From: Comamonadaceae bacterium ALPHA2B
GTDB taxonomy: Bacteria; Pseudomonadota; Gammaproteobacteria; Burkholderiales; Burkholderiaceae_C
Assembly: GCA_005503065.1 (NCBI GenBank)
Contig: SCOE01000018.1
Location: forward strand, 1-64,000
Length of the DNA stretch: 64,000 bases
Direction: 5' to 3'
In this document: one piece after another, positions 29,375-52,492 of the stretch
Layout: the number at the start of each line of letters is the position of its first letter
How positions within the stretch are numbered: position 1 is the stretch's first letter
Position numbers and translations under genes: made by a program
The notes under the pieces: model-generated
Databases searched by the model: none
Seen by the model: the letters and a program-made list of their open reading frames with translations, nothing else
What the model was told of the DNA's origin: nothing

Positions 29375-29714
29375 GTCAAATCCTGGTCTTGCGTAAGGGA
29401 ATGCAGCCTCTTTGCAACAGGCGCGGAGCGTTTGGCTGCGTCGTGTGCATCCACTGTGCGTTTCCGAGTGAGCGGGGACTGTCGTCCGGCGCCGCATGGC
29501 GGGCGACGGGCAGACCGACGATCGACTCCTGCCCCTCGCTGCCGAAAACCTCTCAGGGCAATCCGCTATGGGTCAGCACGCTGTCAGCCGATAAGATCGC
29601 GCACCCTTTTTGGCCACCCGGTTGCTCCGGCGCCAGAGGCCACCCCTCGAGGCCGGCCCGCGTCCGGCGGCCGGCCGGGGGCCTTTCACCATGACCTGCA
29701 CTCGCGGAGAGACC
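29375..29714. other. Divergent intergenic region SDR / Bug protein (340 bp)
   Basis: No gene seen. A GATAAGAT box at 29590 could be a -10 for the Bug gene but has no good -35. A GC-rich stem (CCGGCC..GGCCGG) lies near 29655-29680. The Bug gene's ATG has GGAGAGA upstream. Confidence 0.5.
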
Positions 29715-30689
29715 ATGAAGAAACTGTTCGCCCTCGCGGCGATCGCCGTTGCCGCCACCGGCGTCCAAGCCCAGGATTTCCCGGCGGGCAAGCCCGTCAC
29801 CCTGGTGGTGCCCTTCGCCGCTGGCGGCCCGACCGACAAGGTTGCGCGCGACCTGGCCGAGGCGCTGCAGAAGCCCCTGGGCACCACGGTGATCGTCGAC
29901 AACACCGCCGGCGCCGGCAGCACCATCGGCAACGCCAAGGTGGCTCGCGCCCGCAACGACGGCTACACCCTGCTGCTCACCCATGTGGGCATGGCCACCA
30001 CGCCGGTGCTGTATCGCAAGCTGCCCTACAACTGGGAAACCGACTTCGAGTACCTGGGCATGATCAACGACGTGCCGATGACGCTCATCGGCAAGCCGCA
30101 GCTGGAAGCGAAGAACTTCAAGGAACTGCGCGACTGGATCAGCAAGGCCGGCGGCAAGGTGAACCTGGGCAACGCCGGCATCGGCTCGGCCTCGCACCTG
30201 TGCGGCCTGCTCTTCCAGAGCGAGCTGAAGGCCGAAATGACCACCGTGCCCTACAAGGGCACCGCGCCGGCCATCGCCGACCTGATGGGCGGCCAGATCG
30301 ACCTGCTGTGCGACCAGACCACCAACACCACCAGCCAGATCGAGGCCGGCAAGGTGAAGGCCTACGGCGTGACCACGATGAAGCGCCTGACCACGCCCGC
30401 GCTGAAGAACATCCCGACCCTGGACGAGTCGGGCCTGAAGAACTTCCAGGTCACGATCTGGCACGGCCTGTACGCGCCCAAGGGCACGCCCGCGCCCGTG
30501 CTCAAGAAGATCAACGACGCGCTCAAGGTGGCGCTGAAGGACCCGGACTTCATCAAGCGTGAAGAGGCGCTGGGCGCGGTGGTAATCAACGACAAGCGCG
30601 TCGAGCCGGCGGAGCACAAGAAGTTCGTGCAGGCCGAGGTGGCGCGGTTCGGGCCGGTGATCAAGGCGGCGGGGGTGTACGCCGACTGA
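29715..30689 (+). CDS. Bug/TctC-type tripartite tricarboxylate binding protein
   Basis: Periplasmic solute-binding protein (324 aa) of the Bug family. A signal peptide of about 19 residues ends VQAQ. The mature part starts DFPAGKPVTLVVPFAAGGPTD and has the family stretch IVDNTAGAGSTIGNAKVARARNDGYTLL near 55-85, plus VPYKGTAPAIADLMGGQIDLLCDQ near 180. No TctA/TctB membrane genes lie beside it; orphan Bug genes are numerous in betaproteobacteria. It ends at a strong terminator 27 bases downstream. Confidence 0.9.
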   Translation: MKKLFALAAIAVAATGVQAQDFPAGKPVTLVVPFAAGGPTDKVARDLAEALQKPLGTTVIVDNTAGAGSTIGNAKVARARNDGYTLLLTHVGMATTPVLYRKLPYNWETDFEYLGMINDVPMTLIGKPQLEAKNFKELRDWISKAGGKVNLGNAGIGSASHLCGLLFQSELKAEMTTVPYKGTAPAIADLMGGQIDLLCDQTTNTTSQIEAGKVKAYGVTTMKRLTTPALKNIPTLDESGLKNFQVTIWHGLYAPKGTPAPVLKKINDALKVALKDPDFIKREEALGAVVINDKRVEPAEHKKFVQAEVARFGPVIKAAGVYAD

Positions 30690-30716
30690 TTCTTTTCGCA
30701 GCATTCCTGTTGCGCG

Positions 30717-30752
30717 GGCCGTTGCCTCTTTGGGGGGCAACGGCCTTTTTTT
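30717..30752 (+). terminator. Rho-independent terminator after Bug gene
   Basis: Perfect 10-bp stem GGCCGTTGCC / GGCAACGGCC with a 9-base loop, followed by seven T. It ends transcription of the Bug gene at 29715-30689. Confidence 0.92.
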
Positions 30753-30817
30753 GGTTTGTTTTTGGCCTTGCTGCTCAGCTGATGCAGGAGCCGGGATGTG
30801 CGCCCGGCGGCGCAGTC

Positions 30818-30845
30818 ACTTTCTCTTGTCTCGCCAAGAGAAAGT
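30818..30845. other. Arm hairpin, left (C-G form)
   Basis: ACTTTCTCTTG-N6-CAAGAGAAAGT, 11 paired bases. It is the left-arm counterpart of the hairpin at 31309-31340. At one stem position this copy has C-G where the other has T-A. Confidence 0.8.
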
Positions 30846-31308
30846 AACCAAAGAGAAGGCGACCCCACTGTCTGCGTCCCTCCGCTTCGCTGCGGGCAAC
30901 CTGCGGTGCTCGCGGCTGGCGGGGTCCGCGCAAACTCGCTTCGCTCAAACATGCGCGGCCCTTGATCCGCCAGCCGCTGCGCTCCTCGGCGCAGACAGAG
31001 GGGACCCGGCCCCGGGTCAACAAGGCTGCTGCGCAGCCTTGTCCTTCTGCGGTATTCCTCCCAGGGCCGAGCGAAGCGATGGCCCGTCCTGAAGGGTCCC
31101 TTCTGGATGCGCCTGCGACGTGGCGATGGCGGGGTGGCCGCTGTGCCGCGTGCGGCAACAGCGGCTTCGTGATCTGACTCGCTGCAGCTGTCTGAGCGCA
31201 GCGCGTAGCGCGTAGCGAGTTCTGCAGCGCACCCCGCCAGCGCCGCGGCGCAGGTTGCCCCGCAGCGAAGCGAAGGGGTCGCAGCCAGCAGGGTCGCCTT
31301 TTCTTTGC

Positions 31309-31340
31309 CTACTTTCTTTTGGCGAAGCAAAAGAAAGTAG
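31309..31340. other. Arm hairpin, right (T-A form)
   Basis: CTACTTTCTTTTG-N6-CAAAAGAAAGTAG, 13 paired bases. The stem is kept despite base changes relative to the left arm, which points to selection for pairing. Confidence 0.8.
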
Positions 31341-31403
31341 GTCGCCCGCCGGGGCGACATCCCGGCCCCTGCCGCCAATCACCTGCAAGGTGAAAAAACA
31401 AAC

Positions 31404-33521
31404 CTACTTCGGCCTGACGGCATCCGCCGTCCCCTGAATGAACGCCTTGATCGCCTCGATGTCCTCCATCGACAACTTCCCCGTGAAGTCCGGCATCCCC
31501 CGCGCCATCGCCGGCCCCTTCAGAACGAACTTGTCCAGGTTCTCGATGAAGGCCGAGTTCATGTAGCCCAGGTTCGGGATGTTCCCACCGCGGTCCACAC
31601 CCGGCACGCCGTGGCAGAACACGCAGTTGGCCACGTACAGGCCGGTGCCCCTCTCCACCTTGGCCGGGTCGTACTTCACGCCCTGCACCAGCCTGTCCAT
31701 GCGGTACTGGACGAACTCGGGCATCCTGGCGGTGCCGCCCACGGCGAAGGTGTAGACCGTGCCCGGGCCCTGGCGCTCGGTGGCACGCTGGGCCAGGCCG
31801 TAGACGCCGCCCCACCCCACGGCCACCGACACGTACTGCTTGCCGTCGACCATGTAGGTGGCGGGCGCCGCCACCACGCCGGTGCCGGTGGGCGTCTCCC
31901 ACACCTTCTCGCCGCTCTTCGCGTTGTACGCGACCATGCGCCCGTCAGCCGTGCCCTGGAACACCAGGTTGCCTGCGGTGGTCAGCGTGCCGCCGTTCCA
32001 CGGCGACACATGCTCGACGCCCCAGGCTTCCTTTTGCGCCACCGGGTCCCAGGCCACCAGCCGGCCCATGGGCTTGCTCTTGGGCGGCTCGGCGTTGACG
32101 AACTTGGCGGTGTTCCAGCCCATGTCCGAGTGCGGACGCAGCGGCGCGCTCTCGTTGAACTTCCAGTCCTTGTCGTCCATCAGGTTCAGCGGCACATGCT
32201 GCGCGGGCAGGTAGACCAGCCCGGTCTGCGGATTGAAGGACATCGGGTGCCAGTTGTGCGCGCCGAAGGGACCGGGGATGGCGTCGTAGGGCTTGGTGAC
32301 GTCGCGCGCAGCGGCGATCTCGATCGGCCGGCCCTTGCTGTCGTAGCCACTCGCCCAGTTGACCTCGACGAAGTTCTTGGCCGAGATGAACTGGCCGTTG
32401 GTGCGGTCGATGACGAAGAAGAAGCCGTTCTTGGGCGCGTGCAGGATCACCTTGCGCGCCTTGCCGCCGATCTTCACGTCGGCCAGGATCATCGGCTGCG
32501 TCGAGGTGTAGTCCCAGTTGTCGCCCGGCGTCTCCTGGTAGTGCCACTTGTACTTGCCGGTGTCGGGGTCGAGCGCGACGATCGACGCCAGGTACAGGTT
32601 GTCGCCGCCCTTGGGGCTGCGCTTGCGGTGCGACCAGGGCGAGCCGTTGCCGGTGCCGACGTACATGGTGTTGAGCTCGGGGTCGAAGGCCATCGTGTCC
32701 CACACGGTGCCGCCGCCGCCGGCCTGCCACCACTTGCCGTCGGGGTCCCAGGTCTTCGCGGCCTTCTCCATCGACGCGTCCTCGAAGGGCTTGGACGGGT
32801 CGCCCGGCACGGTGAACCAGCGCCACTTCTGCTCGCCGGTGGCCGCGTCGTAGGCCGTGATGTAGCCGCGCACGCCGTACTCGGCGCCGCCGTTGCCGAT
32901 GATGACCTTGCCCTTGAACACGCGCGGCGCGCCGGTGATGGTGTAGCTGCCGCTCTGGCCCTCGATGGTGTCCTTCTCCCAGACCTTCTGCCCGGTGGCG
33001 GCATCGAGCGCGATCAGGCGGCCGTCGTAGGCGCCCACGTACACCTTGCCCTGCCACAGCGCCACGCCGCGGTTGACGACGTCGCAGCAGCCACGGAAGC
33101 CCTTGGACCGGTCCACCTGCGGGTCGAAGGTCCAGATCTTCTGCCCGGTGCGCGCGTCGATCGCGTGCACCACGCTCCACGAGGCCGTGACGTACATCAC
33201 GCCGTCCACCACCAGCGGCGTGGCCTCCACACCGCGCGTCGATTCCAGGCTGTACGACCACACCAGGCCGAGCTGCTTCACGTTGCCGGTGTCGATCTGG
33301 TTGAGGCGGCTGTAGCGCGTCTCTGCATAGTCCAGGCCGACGCTGGGCCAGTCCGGCGTCTTCGCGGCGTTGCTGCGGATGAAGTTGCCGTCGACCTTCT
33401 TCACGGCGGCGGCCGCGCGGGCGGCGGCATCGCCCTGGGCATGCACATCGAATGCGCCGCCGCCCACCCCGAGGACCATCCCCACGCCGAGCGCGAGGCC
33501 GGCGAGCCATTGAGCTTTCAT
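31404..33521 (-). CDS. PQQ-dependent quinohaemoprotein alcohol dehydrogenase
   Basis: A 705-residue periplasmic enzyme with a signal peptide (cleaved near AFDVHAQG, residue ~29). The first ~580 residues form the PQQ propeller: TPLVVDGVMYV blades, the vicinal Cys pair GCCDVVNRG near 145, the TxGNGSPW motif near 290 and repeated Trp docking motifs. The last ~100 residues are a cytochrome c domain with CxxCH at about 633-637 (CVFCHG) and a Met in GMPDF as possible sixth ligand. It is a type II alcohol dehydrogenase that passes electrons from alcohols to the respiratory chain. AGGAGA precedes the ATG. The AcoR-like gene is divergent. No PQQ synthesis genes are present. Confidence 0.93.
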   Translation of the reverse strand: MKAQWLAGLALGVGMVLGVGGGAFDVHAQGDAAARAAAAVKKVDGNFIRSNAAKTPDWPSVGLDYAETRYSRLNQIDTGNVKQLGLVWSYSLESTRGVEATPLVVDGVMYVTASWSVVHAIDARTGQKIWTFDPQVDRSKGFRGCCDVVNRGVALWQGKVYVGAYDGRLIALDAATGQKVWEKDTIEGQSGSYTITGAPRVFKGKVIIGNGGAEYGVRGYITAYDAATGEQKWRWFTVPGDPSKPFEDASMEKAAKTWDPDGKWWQAGGGGTVWDTMAFDPELNTMYVGTGNGSPWSHRKRSPKGGDNLYLASIVALDPDTGKYKWHYQETPGDNWDYTSTQPMILADVKIGGKARKVILHAPKNGFFFVIDRTNGQFISAKNFVEVNWASGYDSKGRPIEIAAARDVTKPYDAIPGPFGAHNWHPMSFNPQTGLVYLPAQHVPLNLMDDKDWKFNESAPLRPHSDMGWNTAKFVNAEPPKSKPMGRLVAWDPVAQKEAWGVEHVSPWNGGTLTTAGNLVFQGTADGRMVAYNAKSGEKVWETPTGTGVVAAPATYMVDGKQYVSVAVGWGGVYGLAQRATERQGPGTVYTFAVGGTARMPEFVQYRMDRLVQGVKYDPAKVERGTGLYVANCVFCHGVPGVDRGGNIPNLGYMNSAFIENLDKFVLKGPAMARGMPDFTGKLSMEDIEAIKAFIQGTADAVRPK

Positions 33522-33603
33522 CGCGATGTCTCCTGTCGTTGTGGGCCGAAGGATCGGCCGTGTGGCGCCGCCGATCACCCTCGGGATTTCCCCAGTGGGG
33601 GCC

Positions 33604-33620
33604 TGTTCCATTGCGGAACA
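33604..33620. promoter_or_regulatory. Candidate operator between PQQ-ADH and AcoR-like gene
   Basis: Perfect palindrome TGTTCC-N5-GGAACA. It lies midway in the 137-base gap shared by the two divergent genes. The symmetry fits the Fis-type dimeric HTH of the neighbouring regulator. Confidence 0.55.
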
Positions 33621-33658
33621 CATTCGGCGCACCTGTCCGGCGCCCGGAGCACTGCCCG

Positions 33659-34909
33659 ATGACCCACGCCTTGCGCAGCGGCGCCCATGCACCGCGCCAA
33701 CTGTTCGCCACCACGCCGGCCGAGCGCGTGGCGCTGGCACGCCGGCAGTTCTTCGAGGAAGGCCTGCGGCCCTCGGGCCTCGTGGGCGAAGCGGTCATCC
33801 AGTCGTGGATGCGCTGTAGCCGCACGCATACCGACACGCGGCAGCCCGTGGCCTTCGACCCCGTGACGCCCAGCAGGCTGCATTCGGCGCTGGGCCGCAA
33901 CCGCGAGCTGCTGGCCGCGGCACAGGCCGACCTGCTGGCGATGGAAGCGGCCCTGGCCGGCACTGGCTGCCGCGTGCTGCTGACCGCCTGCGACGGGGTG
34001 ATGCTGCACGTGACGCACCACCCCATGGCCCCGCGGCAACCCGTGCTGCACCGCACGGCGCGCGTGGGGGTGAACATCGCGGAACAGGTGGTGGGCACCA
34101 CGGCGCCGGGCATCGTCGCCAGCACCGGGCAGGCCTGCACCGTGAGCGGTGCCGAGCACTATTTCGAGCTCCTGCGCGAGGTGCACTGCGCCGCCGCACC
34201 GATCCGCGATGTGCACGGACGTCTGGCTGGCGTGCTGGACCTGTCGGTGGAGGGCCAGCGCTTCGGCTTCGATGCAGGTTCGATGGTCGGCCTGTACGCC
34301 ACCACGATCGAGAACCGGCTCCTGCAGGCCCAGTCGGGCGCGCACCTCGTCCTTCGCTTCCAGGCCAGCCCCGCACTGCTGGGCACGCCGCTGGAGGCGC
34401 TGGCCGGCATCGCGGCAGACGGCACGGTGGCCTGGCTCAACGACGCCGGTGCGCGCCTGATCGGCCGGCTGCCTGCGCAGGCCGGTGAACGCCGTGTGGA
34501 CGAACTGCTCGGCCACGACCTGCCCAGCCTGCTGCGCCTGGGTCGCCGCGAGGCCGCGCAGCCGATGCGGCTGGCCAGTGGACTGGGGGTGTGGATGCAG
34601 GCCCGCCTGCGCGCGGCCGACGGCATCGACTTCCGGCATGCGGTGGCGACGGCACCAGTGGCGAACGCCGCCCGCGACGAGCAGGTGCATGGTGCGGACG
34701 CTCCCTCGGGACGTGCACCCCAGGCCGCAATGGACGCCGCCCACCTTGCCGAAGACCATCGCGCGGGTTGGACGCTGCGCCAGCAGGAACACTTGCTCGT
34801 GCGGCAGACTCTGGCCGCTCACGACGGCAATGTCTCGCGCGCGGCACGCGCGCTCGGCGTATCGCGCGGCACGCTGTATCGGCGGCTGCGTGACGGCAAC
34901 GAGCCCTGA
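33659..34909 (+). CDS. AcoR-like regulator (GAF + Fis HTH, no AAA+ domain)
   Basis: A 416-residue regulator. The N-terminal part matches AcoR-type activators (VIQSWMRCSRTHTD near 50-60), followed by a GAF sensor domain at about 100-225 (TARVGVNIAEQVVGTTAPGIV, HCAAAPIRDVHGRLAGVLDLSV) and a PAS-like segment near 235-330. The C-terminus is a Fis-type HTH (NVSRAARALGVSRGTLYRRLRD). The central sigma-54 ATPase domain (GAFTGA, Walker A) is absent. It probably regulates the divergent PQQ dehydrogenase through the palindrome between them, without sigma-54. Confidence 0.82.
   Translation: MTHALRSGAHAPRQLFATTPAERVALARRQFFEEGLRPSGLVGEAVIQSWMRCSRTHTDTRQPVAFDPVTPSRLHSALGRNRELLAAAQADLLAMEAALAGTGCRVLLTACDGVMLHVTHHPMAPRQPVLHRTARVGVNIAEQVVGTTAPGIVASTGQACTVSGAEHYFELLREVHCAAAPIRDVHGRLAGVLDLSVEGQRFGFDAGSMVGLYATTIENRLLQAQSGAHLVLRFQASPALLGTPLEALAGIAADGTVAWLNDAGARLIGRLPAQAGERRVDELLGHDLPSLLRLGRREAAQPMRLASGLGVWMQARLRAADGIDFRHAVATAPVANAARDEQVHGADAPSGRAPQAAMDAAHLAEDHRAGWTLRQQEHLLVRQTLAAHDGNVSRAARALGVSRGTLYRRLRDGNEP

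Positions 34910-52415: not shown

Positions 52416-52492
<77 letters not shown>

Follow-up and report, generated by a model that had tools for sequence, protein, structure and literature searches.

Among the known systems closest to the element described here, along with MITEs and the Rfam family TwoAYGGAY, are the potential intrastrand triplex (PIT), BoxC and TM-ECO repeats, which lie between genes in many copies and in which a pyrimidine strand, a purine strand and a purine mirror third strand succeed one another (Class II; PMC4666352). The BoxC motif, as characterized in that paper, is G/C-rich and 34-37 nt long, and inverted BoxC pairs in E. coli always join a motif of type A to a motif of type B (PMC4666352, Holder et al. 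2015). The present element is likewise intergenic and repeated, its arms follow the same Class II order, and it has in common with E. coli BoxC the inverted pairing of an A with a B (PMC4666352). Unlike BoxC, its stem is A/T-rich, its loop pairs with its tail, and a covarying domain of 130-200 nt and a set of overlapping stems are attached to it. Nor do the letters of its arms fit the BoxC/TM-ECO consensus, CCCTCNCCC-GGGNGAGGG-GGGNGAGGG (PMC4666352), and the words "pseudoknot" and "Acidovorax" do not occur in the main text of that paper.

Three other systems invite comparison. Like MITEs, the element is short and non-coding, has terminal inverted repeats, lies in many intergenic copies, carries no transposase and is present at some sites and absent from the same sites in relatives. 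Unlike MITEs, it shows no target-site duplication in the seven copies of its own genome, its ends keep their shape rather than their letters, and no parent transposon was seen in the cores examined. REP, BIME and REPIN sequences, with their RAYT, are also folded, intergenic and arranged as inverted pairs, but the present element is about ten times larger and the presence of its arm does not depend on Y1 (RAYT) transposase genes. Finally, integron attC sites are recognized by the shape of a folded strand whose letters diverge, and single genes lie between them; both features recur here, whereas the present sites are outward pairs at scattered places.

Two outward-facing modules between convergent genes

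The window, that is, the whole 64,000-nucleotide stretch that was analyzed, contains a 590-bp element (30784-31373) composed of two inverted structured ends and a core. As the first-pass annotation had recognized, it lies between two convergent genes, whose ORFs end toward it at 30689 (+) and 31404 (-). The left neighbor (29718-30689, +; its start was picked by eye in the ORF 29610-30689) encodes a TctC-family receptor (PF03401, 3.9e-61). The right neighbor (31404-33740, -, the longest ORF, of which 31407-33521 was scanned for domains) encodes a PQQ-dependent dehydrogenase type with a cytochrome domain (PF01011, 1.7e-83; PF13442, 6.1e-12). In another genome (G003, locus L073) a different inverted repeat, ATACGGTTTTGC ... 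GCAAAACCGTAT, is found just beyond the end of the dehydrogenase-type gene.

The absence of a transposase and of any credible protein was also borne out: Pfam gave no match at E<=1 for five ORFs translated from the element (one translation was incomplete), and no transposase was seen inside it. Rfam, at the gathering threshold, placed no family on the element; its only match in the window was a tRNA gene (52419-52492, -). Sub-threshold Rfam matches at 30700-31450 (E 0.46-4.1) were regarded as chance. The suggestion of a two-way terminator found no support. A terminator-like hairpin (30717-30745) with a T-run (30746-30752) lies outside the element, in the gap that separates it from the left gene; a stem with a T-run was found on neither strand at the module ends, and no T-tract follows the module hairpins. 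Nor do the third strand and the loop-tail pairing described below have a place in a plain terminator.

The arms had been read as inverted copies of a single repeat of about 170 bases. The element is instead made of two diverged modules, each facing outward: module A, of the short type (about 220 nt; 30784-31003), whose conserved strand (-) reads leftwards, and module B, of the long type (about 276 nt; 31098-31373), whose conserved strand (+) reads rightwards. The inverted arms themselves (30759-30880 and 31276-31397) are 122 nt long and 75% complementary, with shorter inverted blocks further inside. The core between the modules (31004-31097) contains a hairpin, ACAAGGCTGCTGCGCAGCCTTGT and GGCCGAGCGAAGCGATGGCC, and varies among copies.

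Read inward, each arm has the same order: overlapping stems, a hairpin, a third strand after 4-5 nt and a tail complementary to the loop. On the left (-), the overlapping stems occupy 30790-30814 (S1, 30790-30795 with 30803-30808; S2, 30799-30803 with 30810-30814), and the hairpin 30818-30845 (30818-30828 with 30835-30845; loop 30829-30834). The third strand (30850-30857, within 30850-30862) is the mirror of 30836-30843, and the tail GCGA (30859-30862) pairs with 30831-30834 in the loop. On the right (+), the tail TCGCC (31294-31298, within 31294-31306) pairs with GGCGA (31321-31325), the third strand TTTTCTTT occupies 31299-31306, the hairpin 31308-31341 (31308-31321 with 31328-31341; loop 31322-31327), and the overlapping stems 31342-31366 (31342-31347 with 31352-31357; 31348-31353 with 31361-31366). 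Both sets of overlapping stems covary. Counted over 14 nt, pairing is 93% in the left hairpin (30815-30828 with 30835-30848) and 100% in the right one (31308-31321 with 31328-31341), and a C-G pair of the left hairpin is replaced by T-A in the right; coordinates and pairing thus confirm the inverted hairpin arms and the base-pair exchange first noticed by inspection.

Behind the tail follows the inner domain, in which CCCC or CCC pairs with GGGG or GGG 130-200 nt further on, a closing-stem test that was passed by 78 of 141 arms. In module A this domain (30863-31003, -) is closed by CCCC (30863-30866) and GGGG (31000-31003) and contains CGAGNANCGCAG and the motif TGTYTGAGC..GCGAGTT; in module B it (31098-31293, +) is closed by CCC (31098-31100) and GGG (31291-31293). 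Two models were built, a covariance model (R1; 82 positions, from 37 arms) for the arm and a second one (R2) for the inner domain. Module A has an R2 match at 30896-30990 (-, 95.8 bits), and module B has an R1 match at 31290-31371 (105.5 bits) and an R2 match at 31145-31258 (+, 32.6 bits). Outside the modules lie a candidate box, GGCCTTGC (30764-30771, on the left, separated from module A by a variable spacer of about 12-14 nt), and a candidate inverted box, GCAAGG (31385-31390, on the right); visual inspection showed them in several of the copies, though not in every one.

Stems, third strand and loop-tail pairing

The overlapping stems combine GCCGGG/CCCGGC with a second stem that takes the form TGCGC/GCGCA, TCGCC/GGCGA or GCCGC/GCGGC. 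Since the connecting loops are so short, they could form either a tight pseudoknot or two alternative hairpins. The arm hairpin has the consensus ACTTTCTTTTG-loop-CAAAAGAAAGT. In 37 arms, stems and hairpin together gave 109 cells changed on both sides, against 32.4 +/- 4.1 after shuffling, and a covariation score of 0.331, against 0.101 for shuffled and at most 0.091 for slid versions; further pair types did not exceed the shuffles (20 versus 19.0). These figures are not probabilities, as the sequences are related and were partly chosen by pattern. The covariation that the first-pass annotation had called for is thus present, and so is the kept structure. Template-switch correction of imperfect palindromes, however, can restore the pairing of a hairpin. 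Since it could also yield such covariation, the covarying hairpin alone is no proof of structural selection, the part of the earlier claim that did not stand.

Two further relations, neither of which is encoded in R1 (whose consensus letters favor the common form), are stronger evidence for selection on structure, because we see no way for template switching to make them. The first is the Class II mirror. Wherever the hairpin was clear (112 distinct arms), we looked for a perfect 8-nt mirror of the arm's own purine core, and 86 arms had one; re-dealing the cores gave 27.9 on average and never more than 39. Arms with the core AAAAGAAA have the third strand AAAGAAAA in 41 of 44 cases and AAAAGAAA in none of the 44; arms with the core AAAGAAAA have the third strand AAAAGAAA in all 27. 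The same rule is obeyed by arms of the types AAGAGAAA, AGAAGAAA and AAGAAAAA. The AAAGAAAA arms come from Xenophilus and from the family and class samples, with none among the order loci inspected. Two arms (L182 and L183) have a pyrimidine interruption in the purine strand, and at that place their third strand has C or G, not the mirror letter.

The second relation is the loop-tail pairing. The tail complements the last four letters of the loop in 96 of the 114 arms with a 6-nt loop (shuffled, 46.2, at most 57). When the loop departs from the consensus, the tail carries its complement in 30 of 46 arms (shuffled, 6.6, at most 13); the other 16 do not fit the pairing, and 3 of the 46 keep the consensus tail.

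The inner domain, in which two copies of CGAGNANCGCAG flank a variable helix and the motif TGTYTGAGC...GCGAGTT recurs, behaves similarly. Among 27 sequences, double changes were found in 12 of 17 predicted pairs, one of them with four Watson-Crick types, and the letters of internal loops are conserved. Judging from these comparisons, the modules are conserved in shape, not in letters, as knotted hairpins with a likely three-stranded helix.

Copies, sites and enclosed genes

The genome to which the window belongs (genus Xenophilus) holds seven full copies, the window copy included, as well as fragments. The other six are 90-94% identical to the window copy, which excludes a single-copy chance repeat. 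R1 detected the arm in at least 67 of 150 genomes of the family, at least 113 of 300 of the order and at least 93 of 369 of the class, lower bounds from overlapping samples with strict filters and few candidates scored per genome; relatives are indeed scattered over the proteobacteria, as had been surmised. The exact hairpin pattern proved too narrow as a search, finding 7 of 398 genomes of the phylum. Partial DNA matches occur on a Variovorax megaplasmid and a Comamonas plasmid. Pasteurella multocida has an inverted arm pair between dapF and the next gene, with one arm in swapped register. A phage collection gave no match to the element, on which ground a phage origin was rejected; two stretches of viral contigs match the exact 24-nt arm pattern. 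In a literature search made mostly outside subscription journals, we found no description of the element.

R2 matched all 15 Xenophilus genomes compared. Among the 150 genus matches listed, neighboring R2 matches within 1.5 kb faced outward in 35 of 35 pairs, counting two genomes, G010 and G014, that are the same strain and hence not independent. All seven full copies in the window's own genome join one A to one B; in each, R2 finds both modules in outward orientation, A at 93.7-95.8 bits and B at a weak 27.8-32.6 bits. In some pairs a long closing helix replaces the third-strand arm. Three loci of the own genome (L024, L025 and L028) form a second family of this sort: their domains face outward and are of the same kind, and the sequence of their long closing helix is free. 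What pairs with and without the third-strand arm have in common is two inner domains that face outward.

The A-core-B units look as though they had been multiplied as wholes, since modules on the same side of different elements are more alike than the two sides of one element, and there is one A per B. In a genome with four elements (G374), left-right identity was 0.56-0.71 and identity with the same-side module of another element 0.80-0.97; in one with two (G558) the values were 0.65-0.67 versus 0.79-0.95; a third (G554) gave a mixed picture. In this comparison one module of G262 was mis-parsed; in the separate comparison that showed one A per B in the own copies, the mis-anchored site-5 right modules of G010 and G014 were left out.

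Empty sites, which the first-pass annotation had proposed to look for, were found in relatives: at the window site and four other sites of the own genome, 13 of 14 relative loci had no R1 or R2 match (window site, G001, G006, G007, G011 and G012; site 3, G001, G004 and G012; site 4, G004; site 5, G012; site 6, G001, G004 and G012). At site 5, where the own genome has a full element, G004 has an outward R2 pair without third-strand arms (L235:429-808), and the arms may therefore change in place. Other Xenophilus genomes carry the element where the own genome does (at sites 3, 4 and 5 their flanks stand 743-893 bp apart), so that recent movement cannot be claimed. No target-site duplication appeared: among the own copies (seven, six of them correctly anchored) the best product of copies and length was 8, within the 7-10 of 40 shuffled controls. 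In G013 an element (L229; C153:33000-34200) has the left-hand flank of own-genome site 6 on one side and the right-hand flank of the window site on the other, flanks that stand apart in the own genome; the junction could reflect either recombination of one copy with another or a misassembly.

Inverted pairs were counted up to a length of 1.7 kb, and of these 51 only 7 exceed 960 bp; cargo is therefore the exception and could consist of chance neighbors. In one genome (G934), inverted arms surround a 306-aa DpnII/MboI-type restriction protein (L206:2585-4070; PF18742, 5.8e-41; PADLOC, Aga helical REase), and another pair there and a pair in G841 contain proteins of 237 and 261 aa, respectively; the genes beside these pairs look, by eye, like housekeeping genes. 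In G1152 (L207:3876-8122) three repeats of 300 nt, all carrying a (-) arm, are spaced at 2 kb around a Tae4/Tai4 T6SS effector-immunity pair. Of the seven ORFs scanned first, one gave a weak Pfam match and one was a peptidase M90; the other five stayed without a match at E<=0.1. A locus of G1059 (L204) that had been read as a cassette array was rejected as such, its neighbors being GGDEF/EAL, glycine cleavage and multicopper oxidase genes with partial duplications.

No transposase-bearing parent was seen in the cores examined, a non-exhaustive set. Y1_Tnp was present in 27 of 33 R1-positive and 14 of 20 R1-negative genomes (missing from six of each), with no association, and RAYT/IS200 mobilization as the driver was rejected accordingly. 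A simple pattern look beside the Y1 gene of the own genome revealed no arm letters.

Mobile unit or RNA module

On balance we lean, at slightly less than even confidence, toward a MITE-like non-autonomous mobile element whose outward A and B structured ends would be recognized in folded form. This reading draws on the likeness of whole units, the outward orientation of the pairs, the sites found empty, the genes found between arms and the DNA-type loops. A MITE had been among the options first offered, and it fits best, in that whole units are multiplied and relatives have empty sites, but the defining target-site duplication is missing. We propose that single strands exposed in replication, repair or transcription would fold, the outward strand of each module forming in succession its multi-helix inner domain, an H-type pseudoknot (TCGCC ... 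GGCGA) and the two overlapping stems. The long pseudoknot loop would lie on the hairpin stem as a third strand, in T.A-T and C.G-C triples. A putative trans-acting recombinase or nuclease would recognize the folded strands, and the complete A-core-B unit, which in some bacteria includes a gene, would be copied or moved into gaps downstream of genes.

The main rival, which takes up the RNA of unknown role among the options first offered, is a structured RNA module for the 3' ends of transcripts, which would shield the end, stop transcription or bind a regulator such as CsrA; we regard it as a real contender, though on the improbable side. With modules facing outward, read-through from either neighbor would give one correctly oriented module on the 3' side. 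This alternative is carried by gene-end placement, wobble bias and matches to the Rfam family TwoAYGGAY. As to placement, the 41 inverted pairs with a callable gene on each side (10 of 51 were dropped) had 23 convergent, 15 tandem and 3 divergent neighbors, raw counts from our own ORF heuristic without a background; the sites are mostly downstream of genes. The A+B pairing and the enclosed genes would, however, be unnecessary for a 3' module.

Both readings must account for the strand. Read outward, TCGCC, TTTTCTTT and the hairpin with GGCGA in its loop spell an H-type pseudoknot, whose pyrimidine-rich loop can, by its letters, run alongside the purine strand in parallel orientation and form T.A-T and C.G-C triples; read inward, the same arm is a purine-motif triplex. 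A purine-motif triplex cannot form in RNA, according to PMC4666352, but a pyrimidine third strand can, which suits the RNA module. Hairpin mismatches in 135 arms, read inward, comprised 56 A.C and 3 G.T, that is, 56 G.U versus 3 A.C outward, with 44 of the 56 at one position. The bias is weaker over a 51-sequence alignment (outward, 84 G.U, 53 A.C and 191 other mismatches), and there is none in PK1 S2 or in the loop-tail pairing (A.C versus G.T, 12 versus 11 and 7 versus 4, respectively), which tells against RNA. Predicted energy was lower for the outward strand in 36 of 39 cases with RNA parameters and in 33 of 39 with DNA parameters, and for the consensus of a plain MAFFT alignment (-86.8 versus -80.2). 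The outward strand is thus probably the acting one, and its G.U excess would fit RNA too.

The loops, meanwhile, point toward DNA. GCGAAGC, an extraordinarily stable DNA mini-hairpin (PMC4686876), occurs outward 50 times, in 36 of 78 inner domains, and never inward (shuffled, 5.1). RNA-type loops are not enriched outward in the 78 domains (cUUCGg, 0 versus 0.8; GNRA, 11 versus 23.3 shuffled), and the inward strand has 9 cUUCGg versus 0.8 shuffled. Counts of GNA triloops (92 versus 12.5; 216 versus 48.7) were dropped, being inflated by the conserved GCGCAG and CCGCAGG, which the consensus places in internal loops; for that reason only GCGAAGC is taken as loop evidence. From these letters the acting folded strand could be either single-stranded DNA or RNA.

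TwoAYGGAY (RF01731) matched the three 300-nt repeats of L207 at 45.0, 40.8 and 38.4 bits, one above and two below the gathering threshold of 43, on the same strand as the outward arm and at its inner side. It matched neither the window (nor, at E<=5, 30700-31450) nor any of the 7 other sources in one scan and the 10 others in a second. Hairpins with a GGA loop accompany 22 of 46 class-level arms (9.1 expected), again in favor of RNA. Arms with two or more numbered 7 among these 46 but 0 among the 95 that Xenophilus, family and order supplied, which speaks against it.

A decayed or parasitized transposon, with plain terminal inverted repeats of a known transposase and with covariation arising from template-switch correction of quasi-palindromes and no structural selection, would explain the inverted ends, the lack of an own gene and the copies at many sites, as well as restored hairpin pairing. 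We nevertheless consider it very unlikely: template switching does not generate a mirror third strand or a loop-tail pairing, the inner domains keep conserved internal-loop letters, and neither a target-site duplication nor, in the cores examined, a transposase-bearing parent was found. Scarcely probable at all is an intrastrand-triplex hotspot (PIT/BoxC type) for recombination or fork stalling, kept because it raises genome plasticity, for although it would have the mirror class and A+B pairing of E. coli BoxC (PMC4666352) and the G013 junction on its side, it leaves the inner domain, the loop-tail pairing and the unit-wise likeness unexplained, and any repeat can be expected to undergo such an exchange, while the junction might also be an assembly artifact.

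The mobile-element reading can be widened to class-wide units that are able to carry defense and competition genes and whose ends, tertiary folds of single-stranded DNA (two pseudoknots plus a triple helix), would be recognized by a putative enzyme. That would be a new kind of transposable end, with its shape conserved across Beta- and Gammaproteobacteria; in this full form we think it rather unlikely to be right. If the account of the element given here is true, about a quarter of the sampled class genomes would carry a repeat, left unnamed by Rfam scans outside one genome, that keeps its shape, base triples and loop-tail pseudoknot while its letters change. Why bacteria keep triplex-forming repeats would become testable, and a natural DNA (or RNA) triplex pseudoknot would be at hand in many covarying versions. 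There would also be a handle on the putative enzyme that may read the folded ends, and possibly a way for the genes of restriction enzymes and T6SS effectors to reach housekeeping neighborhoods.

Many contigs of G002, G008, G010, G013 and G014 end inside copies of the element, and draft assemblies therefore under-count complete elements. The element may account for some of the contig ends in these assemblies and for some of their spurious Arg/Lys-rich ORFs.
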